Positions 2 to 2,101 of a stretch of 64,000 nucleotides of DNA are shown here, in pieces. The notes under the pieces are model-generated. The model was not told the DNA's origin, made no database searches, and saw only the letters and a program-made list of their open reading frames with translations. Made by a program: the position numbers and the translations under genes. The first letter of the stretch is position 1; every line of letters begins with the position of its first letter. This DNA comes from Leptolyngbya ohadii IS1 (GTDB lineage: Bacteria; Cyanobacteriota; Cyanobacteriia; Elainellales; Elainellaceae), in the NCBI RefSeq assembly GCF_002215035.1, contig NZ_NKFP01000006.1:756530-820529 (forward strand), written 5' to 3'.

Positions 2-1855
2 GGTCGCAGCCATGTTGCTTTTGTAGATAGTACGCTTCCAGACTACAAAGCACTTGTTGCTGGACTGAAACCGGGAACCGAGGTGCATATTCTGGCTCCT
101 GACGAAAACGAAATTACCCAGATCAGTCAAGTTCTTGCAGATCGGACAGGCATCAAGAGTCTGGCAATCATCACTCATGGGAGTGAGGCAAGCTTGGAGT
201 TAGGGAGTACCAGGCTCAATTCAGCGACCCTTAGTGAGTATGAGGAGGATTTGCAGGGCTGGGCAAAGTCATTGTCAGAAGGGGGAGACCTTTTGTTCTA
301 TGGCTGTAATGTCGCGGCAGGGGAGGCGGGTAAAGCATTTGTACAGCAACTGCATCAGGTTACAGGAGCAGATGTTGCTGCCTCGGATGACTTGACTGGC
401 AGTACCCTTGCTGGGGGGAACTGGGAACTGGAATATCAGGTTGGCAAGGTTGAATCCGTAGGGCAATTGCAGCCAGAGCAAGACTATAACCATGTTTTAG
501 CAACGTCGAAACAGGACAATGCGGCTTTAAGCCGATTAGTTTTGAAAGCCGTTCGTCAAGCTAAATTTGACCAGGTGATTGACTTCGGACCCGTAGAAGA
601 TGTGTTTGGACCCAGCCCTGCCTCCCGGATAGCGCATACGCCAAATGTCGATGTCGCCGTAATTGAACTCGATCGCAACGGCAAAGCAAAAGCAGTGGCG
701 GATGTTCTCCTGTCGCGTGACTACTCCAAGGGGTTAAGCGTTCCCATCAATCAAAATAGCGGCACGGATGCAGTTCGCTGGCGTAAGTGGGATATCGATC
801 GCTGGAACGGCGGGACTTTCGACGACAGCGGGACTCAGCTCACGACGAAGGGATGGGATACAAATCCACCTTTTACAGCCGCAGACGATATCGTGTCGGG
901 ACGTAGGAATGCCCCCTATCAATTTATGTCTCCATATCCTGCCTCTTTGTTTAAGCTGCTGGTGGCTTACTATGTCATGGATCTGGTGGATGAAGGCAAG
1001 CTCTCGCTGAACCAGCGTTATACCTACTCGGTCACGGGAGAGACGCGATCGATTCGCCGCTGGATGAATCCAATGATTACCTATTCGGATAATCCCTCAA
1101 CCCGTGCATTGGTTAAACTCCTGCACGATCGCAATGAAATTAGGGGCATGAATGCAGAGTTCCGTCGTCTGGGGTTAGGCACGCTACAGGTAAATGGCAC
1201 TGACCCGACCACAGGCGGCAATTGGCAACCGGGGCAGATTCACATGACGGCACTGGATACAGCCCGATTGCTATGGCTGATTAATGGAACAAGCAACGAT
1301 GAGCAAGTGCTGTGGGACAAGCCGAATGGAAAACCAGTCACTTCGGCTGAATTAAGCGATGGTTCGCGCAACTTTCTCAAGCGGCTTCTGGCAAATCAGG
1401 GCTTTAACGAAGTCCTGTCTACGTCCAACTTCGGCACGTTTCGCAAGAACGGAAAACTATTTGGTGCGCCCAACACCCGTCCTGGCATTCCGGCAGTGGT
1501 TCCAAAACAATGGATCGACTCCAAAGATGGAACCGTAACGGTTGACGGGATTCCCTACGGTCAGGATGTTCGTCCGTTCAACAAAGAAGCGGCTGAAGTG
1601 AAGTTTTTACACAAGACCGGGCTAACGTTCAATTATGGCTCCGACGCTGGAATTGTCCAATCCCTACCCGGAAAGCCTGAGCGCCAATACATCATCGCTT
1701 TTCTGGCGAATTTAGGATACCGATACGCTGATCCTGTCTTTGCCGATCGCACCAGCTACCCCTATCTCGATCCGGTTGGCGGAATTGCCTACACCCAGAA
1801 GATTCCAGCATTAGGCAAGCAAATAGACGGTGGAATTAAGGCACAAAATCGCTGA
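2..1855 (+). CDS. DUF4347 domain / class A beta-lactamase-like serine hydrolase fusion, 5' partial
   Basis: The reading frame is open to the left edge. Translation from base 2 gives typical DUF4347 beginnings (HVAFVDSTLPDYKALV), so the GTG at 83 is internal and the true start lies outside the window. Bases 2-500 encode DUF4347, a domain usually found at the N-terminus of large exported cyanobacterial adhesins. The rest is a penicillin-binding/beta-lactamase class A-like fold with its three motifs in order: SLFK (944-955), SDN (1085-1093) and KTG (1613-1621). The nucleophile would be the Ser of SLFK. Activity could be DD-peptidase, beta-lactamase or another serine hydrolase; the sequence does not decide. 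The DUF4347 part suggests export or a surface role, but this is inference. The gene stands alone, 331 bp before rpsL. Confidence 0.8.
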   Translation, partial: GRSHVAFVDSTLPDYKALVAGLKPGTEVHILAPDENEITQISQVLADRTGIKSLAIITHGSEASLELGSTRLNSATLSEYEEDLQGWAKSLSEGGDLLFYGCNVAAGEAGKAFVQQLHQVTGADVAASDDLTGSTLAGGNWELEYQVGKVESVGQLQPEQDYNHVLATSKQDNAALSRLVLKAVRQAKFDQVIDFGPVEDVFGPSPASRIAHTPNVDVAVIELDRNGKAKAVADVLLSRDYSKGLSVPINQNSGTDAVRWRKWDIDRWNGGTFDDSGTQLTTKGWDTNPPFTAADDIVSGRRNAPYQFMSPYPASLFKLLVAYYVMDLVDEGKLSLNQRYTYSVTGETRSIRRWMNPMITYSDNPSTRALVKLLHDRNEIRGMNAEFRRLGLGTLQVNGTDPTTGGNWQPGQIHMTALDTARLLWLINGTSNDEQVLWDKPNGKPVTSAELSDGSRNFLKRLLANQGFNEVLSTSNFGTFRKNGKLFGAPNTRPGIPAVVPKQWIDSKDGTVTVDGIPYGQDVRPFNKEAAEVKFLHKTGLTFNYGSDAGIVQSLPGKPERQYIIAFLANLGYRYADPVFADRTSYPYLDPVGGIAYTQKIPALGKQIDGGIKAQNR

Positions 1856-1899
1856 AGGGTTCAGTCCATAAATCCTCAGTTGGGTAGTGCAACTCCTAA

Positions 1900-2044
1900 C
1901 GCCCCCTAAATCCCCCAAGCTTGGGGAACTTCTGATCCTTGGTACTTTAAGCGGTTGAGCAAGATGACGAGCAAAAGTTCATACCATTGAATCGTTGAGA
2001 TGTGGAGATTTCAAAGTCCCCCAGAATTGGGGGATCTGGGGGGT
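1900..2044. repeat. Imperfect inverted repeat pair, MITE-like
   Basis: A C-rich arm at 1901-1930 (core CCCCCTAAATCCCCCAA) and a G-rich arm at 2013-2044 (core TTGGGGGATCTGGGGGG) are near reverse complements over about 30 nt, with some 80 bp between them. The arms lie in the spacer between the DUF4347 gene and rpsL. Such C/G-run palindromes are scattered in many cyanobacterial genomes. No ORF lies inside, so it would be a non-autonomous repeat or folded RNA element. Confidence 0.6.
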
Positions 2045-2101
2045 GTGCAGGGTCTCAGACTAACCCGATCGCCTTACCGCTGTTTAATCCAATCCCACGA
2101 A

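Follow-up and report, generated by a model that had tools for sequence, protein, structure and literature searches.

A cyanobacterial fusion of DUF4347, a predicted caspase-type protease domain, with a penicillin-fold hydrolase-like domain

We have analyzed a gene of Leptolyngbya ohadii IS1 that joins a DUF4347 domain to a domain of the penicillin-recognizing type. The gene lies at the start of the window, by which we mean the whole stretch of 64,000 nucleotides of DNA under analysis. The reading that we prefer, with a probability of about 0.45, is that the product is a two-enzyme protein, in which DUF4347 would be a cysteine protease with a His70/Cys113 dyad acting on a penicillin-fold acyl-serine hydrolase, either by processing or by gating it; both activities are predicted. 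The gene is intact, and its product has the predicted fold and the dyad alignment in its first half and three penicillin-fold motifs in its second. From these we infer a protease activity, self-processing, a hydrolase activity, and the substrate and place of action of the latter.

The open frame within the window comprises 617 codons and is the major part of one gene. The initial annotation placed the 5′ end outside the window, and extension of the sequence leftward (genome stretch L020) bears this out. The gene is completed unbroken, with its ATG at L020:8499, 33 bases (11 codons) before window base 2, giving a single intact frame of 628 amino acids that runs from DUF4347 into the hydrolase part. 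It is flanked on one side by a gene for a calcineurin-like phosphoesterase and on the other by the str cluster (rpsL, rpsG, fusA and tuf, named by eye). Window positions 1864-2061, between the fusion gene and rpsL, are occupied by a dispersed repeat that contains runs of C and G, and 66 further short matches to it are listed in the genome, on both strands. The DNA 1.3-3.2 kb upstream of the window (L020:5358-7247, G000:C6 753357-755246) contains perfect inverted repeats. Their arms of 561 nt and 340 nt are 100% complementary, with one more of 194 nt at 92%, and a portion of a gene similar to that for tRNA (guanine-N7) methyltransferase (named by eye) is duplicated in them. They represent an inverted duplication of very recent origin or else a fault of assembly. 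The features of the fusion gene are collected in Table 1.

Table 1. Features of the fusion gene and locations of the stand-alone relatives of its hydrolase part (window coordinates unless a locus is named)
Feature	Position	Strand	Basis
Reading frame of the fusion protein, 628 aa	2..1855, stop 1853-1855; ATG outside window	+	ORF and upstream sequence
DUF4347 domain, residues 16-177, predicted caspase/CHAT-type fold	14..499	+	Pfam, AlphaFold model, fold matches
His70 of HG motif, putative dyad histidine	176..178	+	Invariant in 38/38; aligned with 9qpe_G position 77
Cys113 of YGCN motif, putative dyad cysteine	305..307	+	Invariant in 38/38; aligned with 9qpe_G position 131
Tyr173-Leu177, aromatic-x-x-x-Leu end of DUF4347; speculative processing point	485..499	+	36/38 match pattern
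N-terminal part of hydrolase, residues 180-322; stretch before SLFK helix varies in length among 5 members	506..934	+	Alignments A3, A5
Beta-lactamase2 (PF13354) match, residues 323-438	935..1282	+	Pfam
SLFK 326-329, putative nucleophile Ser326 and Lys329	944..955	+	Pfam, alignments; Lys absent in L055
SDN 373-375 (SxN motif)	1085..1093	+	Ser and Asn in 5/5 members, Asp in 3/5
Asp412 of T-D-x-x-T-G-G, class A Glu166 slot	1202..1204	+	5/5 members; alignments to 8eo7, 6v4w
Conserved insert, residues 439-547, between omega-loop region and HKTG	1283..1609	+	Family alignment
HKTG 548-551 (KTG 549-551)	1610..1621	+	5/5 members; profile alignment to canonical PF13354 HKTG
Stand-alone hydrolase relatives	L055:1474-2772, L056:1471-2733, L106:1417-2790

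Both halves of the 628-residue protein are recognized by Pfam. DUF4347 (PF14252) is matched with E 5.2e-58 and 195.9 bits against a cut-off of 24.6, covering the full profile (1-164), and Beta-lactamase2 (PF13354) with E 1.1e-13 and 51.4 bits against a cut-off of 22. A full-length orthologue of the same architecture is present in Elainella saxicola E1 (G030, LUGL01000023.1), with 70% identity over residues 2-626. The joining of DUF4347 to a domain of the penicillin-recognizing type, as initially annotated, is therefore a real and conserved fusion. It was also described as an unusual combination, and we found it in just two of the 98 genomes searched, i.e., that of the window and G030. The genes neighboring the fusion differ between these genomes, so that its presence does not depend on a particular locus. 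Between the two genomes dN is 0.35 for DUF4347 and 0.18 for the remainder, with dS above 2 and saturated, and by this comparison of sequences both halves are under constraint. The perfect inverted repeats upstream might be an assembly fault, and a fusion created by an error of assembly or frame may be imagined. Yet the same fusion occurs in a second genome within another neighborhood, and both of its halves are constrained, so that an artefact is hardly credible; on the unbroken frame, the orthologue and the constraint we have rejected it.

The window protein has matches in 71 of the 98 related genomes, nearly all via DUF4347, and the C-terminal part (E up to 1e-8) is found in the same two genomes as the whole fusion. 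Among 386 genomes sampled from the phylum the C-terminal part (E up to 1e-5) occurs in two, that of the window and G399. It is present in two of 25 genomes of the genus of G399 (G399 and G474), and long matches were obtained in three of 350 genomes of its family (G399, G474 and G738), where 18 more gave only short, weak ones. The scan of named genome contigs for the C-terminal part used two peptide patterns only, and is blind to distant relatives. The relatives in G399, G474 and G738 are stand-alone hydrolase genes of 420-457 amino acids in cyanobacteria with small genomes, and no DUF4347 was found in the stretches surrounding the three genes. No homologue of the C-terminal part was found on plasmids (tblastn, E up to 1e-5), nor did either of the two fused proteins give a PADLOC match to a defense system at E up to 1.

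The structure of DUF4347 was predicted with confidence, the AlphaFold model having a pLDDT of 90.3 and a pTM of 0.86. Prediction did not succeed for the C-terminal part, for which a model calculated from four sequences has a pLDDT of 41.7. The DUF4347 model looks like a caspase/CHAT-type (clan CD-like) cysteine-protease fold, with Tce1 its nearest relative, and it has the caspase-like alpha/beta arrangement of that clan. Comparison with the PDB using Foldseek gave as top match 9qpe_G (E 1.5e-6), which is Tce1 (PA0256) of Pseudomonas aeruginosa, a named DUF4347 protein in the PDB. Only two rows fall under E 0.001, the second being a dehydrogenase, and the lower rows are mostly legumain and caspases (E 1.3e-3 to 1.1e-2). 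Alignment of the model with VIA-align gave Z 13.2 for 9qpe_G (rmsd 3.0, 146 residues aligned) and Z 9.1 for SAVED-CHAT 8tl0_C (rmsd 3.4, 139 aligned). Caspases, TPR-CHAT, C11, legumain and the TcdB cysteine protease domain gave Z 6.4-7.4, where values below 8 may reflect a common arrangement alone. The initial annotation of DUF4347 as an adhesin-type leader is thus not what the predicted structure indicates.

At the level of sequence the connection is fainter. In a profile search of the PDB Tce1 came second (E 0.024), after an ECT2-like oncogene chain (11xu_A1, E 0.0083) for which the aligned piece lacks the dyad. Comparison of DUF4347 with CHAT (PF12770) by hhalign, using a profile of 22 of the 45 matches in the same genome, gave a probability of 6% and a score of 25.6 against 23.5 for the best of 60 shuffles; in this alignment His falls on His and Cys on Cys, in exact register of the dyad. 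The corresponding comparison with C14 (PF00656, profile from all 15 matches) gave a probability of 2.5% and a score of 22.5 against 19.6 for the best of 60 shuffles, and did not reproduce the dyad. We regard the link of DUF4347 to CHAT and C14 in sequence as only suggestive.

Are the putative catalytic residues conserved? In an alignment of 38 DUF4347 domains only nine columns are invariant, and these include His70, Gly71 and Cys113. Strands are predicted at residues 62-68 and 102-111, preceding His70 and Cys113, respectively, which by sequence and predicted secondary structure is the clan CD arrangement of a dyad after two strands. The two residues fall on chain positions 77 and 131 of 9qpe_G in a profile alignment counted by eye. 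In the available part of PMC13323088 a dyad of His186 and Cys240 is proposed for Tce1 by comparison with TcdB, and a protease-like part spanning residues 110-310 is described. Since the length of the 9qpe_G chain (201) fits this part, it would start at residue 110, and positions 77 and 131 then suggest the same His186 and Cys240.

We inspected the dyad positions in the window protein and in 13 of the 14 DUF4347 proteins that the genome has besides it. Both residues are held by 13 of these 14 domains, and the exception (L099) has lost both. We also examined 40 weak homologues from ten genomes, i.e., 40 of the lowest 47 of 98 rows, the omissions being four split G033 pieces, G045:C308 (which has an internal TAG), G084:C50 and G023:C6. 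Both dyad residues are present in 31 of these, neither in six (one of which, L125, has a gap in the Cys column) and one in three. This joint retention or loss gives Fisher p = 5e-5, or 2e-4 when the gap case is removed, values that are uncorrected for kinship and come from weak copies that are degenerate generally. Alignment A4 omits the window itself (L011) and L017, an equal-scoring copy of L016. Eight short frames of 167-211 amino acids (L125, L127, L128, L129, L131, L133, L134 and L135) carry a DUF4347-like domain that is degenerate and lacks at least one residue of the dyad, and possibly constitute a family of inactive stand-alone copies.

The end of DUF4347 is also conserved. An aromatic residue, two free positions, one of ten residues and then Leu are found in 36 of the 38 sequences; V, T or I precedes this Leu in 33, and the sequences diverge after it. 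Cysteine protease domains of the toxin type have leucine specificity, and the junction Leu recalls this by analogy. Pro stands right after the Leu in seven of the 38 proteins, and in the orthologue of the window protein the segment ends in Pro-Leu. Cleavage exactly at this point would be hindered by an adjacent Pro.

The C-terminal part is, judged by its motifs and profile matches, a small subfamily of penicillin-fold proteins. The five members align end to end, each having the insert before HKTG, and PF13354 matches all five at E up to 1, the best with 6.1e-16. The motifs SLFK, SDN and KTG lie in that order in the window protein, as initially annotated. SLFK is found in four of the five members (it is SLFA in L055), SDN in three with SSN in the other two, and KTG in all. 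SLFK and SDN are within the PF13354 match, and HKTG lies about 110 residues beyond its end, behind the insert. When the family was compared with 20 canonical cyanobacterial PF13354 proteins by hhalign, the half containing SxxK and SxN aligned with a probability of 96.9 and E 1.8e-10. HKTG was aligned to the HKTG of the 20 proteins with a score of 28.3 and E 0.0005, against 19.9 for the best of 50 column shuffles, the hhalign probability being only 32%.

Among solved structures the family profile matches 5zqa (E 3e-5), 8eo7 (5.8e-5), 6v4w (1.2e-4) and 8eo5 (LRA-5, 2.3e-4). The first is Lmo2812 of Listeria, which we take to be a D-Ala-D-Ala carboxypeptidase; the chains of 8eo7 and 6v4w are named as beta-lactamases, and their residue aligned with Asp412 is presumably Glu166. 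In these matches the SxxK-SxN half is aligned and the Glu166 slot is occupied by Asp412; KTG lies outside them. The initial description of this part as class A beta-lactamase/DD-peptidase-like is correct insofar as SxxK, SDN and KTG are present in a penicillin-recognizing fold (PF13354). It goes too far for class A itself, as the NCBIfam class A beta-lactamase model scores 20.8 bits against a cut-off of 200, and Asp replaces Glu166. Two other identities were tried and rejected, i.e., S11 D-Ala-D-Ala carboxypeptidase (PF00768, 11.8 bits against a cut-off of 27.6) and PF00144, which is below the Pfam cut-off.

Where might such a protein act? DUF4347 occurs in 15 places in the window genome, in frames of 660 to 8565 amino acids, the longest being an open frame headed by DUF4347 in L089 (G000:C1:49900-66000). 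Of the 14 proteins other than that of the window, 12 were scanned with Pfam, the 8565-residue frame and the C1:923600 copy being excluded. RTX repeats are present in nine of the 12, and the remaining three have lectin, Calx-beta or NPCBM domains and a match to the glucose/sorbosone dehydrogenase family. It is conceivable on this basis that DUF4347 is an idle leader for export to the surface, and the hydrolase a surface-exposed DD-peptidase or beta-lactamase-like enzyme, as the initial annotation had it. In 13 DUF4347 N-termini there is no strong hydrophobic stretch before the domain (the highest 15-residue mean being 1.43), which would fit type I export lacking a signal peptide. However, the window protein gives no match to the RTX family HemolysinCabind (Pfam, E up to 1), and its C-terminus is that of the hydrolase family, common to the stand-alone members. 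Surface targeting is therefore not supported for it; the partner domains of the other DUF4347 proteins argue for export, but its own sequence shows no route, neither RTX repeats nor an N-terminal hydrophobic stretch. The His/Cys dyad is moreover better kept than would be predicted for an idle leader, and we consider this explanation unlikely.

The location could instead be the cytosol, with a penicillin-fold serine hydrolase acting on a small amide or ester and DUF4347 having a regulatory role. Analysis of the first 45 residues by the Kyte-Doolittle method revealed no hydrophobic stretch in any of the five hydrolase members, including the window protein, whereas such a stretch precedes the domain by 75-94 residues in each of the ten canonical cyanobacterial PF13354 proteins tested, out of the 20 aligned. 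The stand-alone genes adjoin cysC, encoding APS kinase, in all three genomes, two of them 10-17 bases downstream of it and the third 0.4 kb before it, and for those three this leans towards a role within the cell. Set against this are the domains typical of extracellular proteins that all 12 of the other DUF4347 proteins scanned carry, and a wholly cytosolic protein seems to us rather unlikely. The replacement of SLFK by SLFA in L055, i.e., loss of the SxxK lysine, counts against hydrolase activity, and together with the variable aspartate of SDN raises the question of whether the C-terminal part, as a pseudoenzyme, binds a ligand such as a peptidoglycan fragment and so controls the DUF4347 protease. 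Nevertheless SxxK, SxN and KTG are all kept in four of the five members, that of the window among them, and we think a pseudoenzyme quite improbable.

In the two-enzyme protein that we prefer, DUF4347 would be a clan CD-like protease domain related to Tce1, with His70 and Cys113 as its dyad. Most likely it would act on the chain to which it belongs, close to or at the junction that follows Leu177, or else gate its partner, and the hydrolase would thereby be set free or switched on. Within the hydrolase Lys329 would activate Ser326, helped by Ser373 and Lys549, leading to an acyl-enzyme in whose deacylation Asp412 may serve.

Each part of the fusion belongs to a known kind, and the wider interest lies in the caspase-type reading of a domain that heads large cyanobacterial proteins. 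A bolder generalization is that DUF4347 is a self-acting caspase-type protease heading large cyanobacterial surface proteins, and that it detaches itself by cleavage, or brings its cargo to maturity, in the vicinity of the aromatic-x-x-x-Leu junction. On that view the window protein would be a case in which the cargo is a second enzyme, the penicillin-fold hydrolase, released or switched on by proteolysis. We judge that this broad form will probably not hold, but DUF4347 as a caspase-type protease is a testable proposal for the processing of the large DUF4347 proteins, and the first half of the fusion may reveal what heads many such proteins at the cyanobacterial surface. With 628 residues, two domains and a nameable active residue in each, the window protein offers a compact and uncomplicated test. 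In the literature consulted on DUF4347 we saw no stated function for the domain, and PMC8262886, in its available part, says that PA0256 contains an uncharacterized DUF4347. The fold and the proposed dyad are already in print for Tce1, and in the available parts of PMC13323088 and PMC8262886 we did not find them carried over to the DUF4347 family; the word DUF4347 is absent from PMC13323088. A search of titles and listings found no paper describing DUF4347 combined with a penicillin fold.

The relationship to known systems may be summarized for each half in turn. The hydrolase part shares with canonical PF13354 proteins (e.g., G000:C6:3129064-3129696) the order of SxxK, SDN and HKTG and similar flanks to HKTG, but in the canonical proteins HKTG follows the omega loop at a much shorter distance, and the hydrophobic stretch of the ten tested is probably a membrane anchor. 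Among solved structures the family profile matches Lmo2812, 8eo7, 6v4w and 8eo5 best in sequence, yet these matches comprise the half with SxxK and SxN and extend no further than the omega loop, and the window family has Asp412 and long inserts. DUF4347 resembles the clan CD proteins (CHAT, caspase, legumain, C11 and the TcdB type) in the arrangement of its strands and in the placing of HG and Cys, each behind one of two successive strands; it differs in that Z is only 6.4-7.4 for all besides SAVED-CHAT (9.1), and the hhalign probability of sequence similarity is not convincing. The closest likeness is to Tce1, which has the same DUF4347 fold and a proposed dyad whose His and Cys coincide with His70 and Cys113. 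As described in the available part of PMC13323088, Tce1 is a cargo loaded into the type VI secretion ring, its protease-like part follows an N-terminal extension, it showed no toxicity in yeast and its protease activity is putative. In the window protein, by contrast, DUF4347 comes first in the chain and the hydrolase follows.
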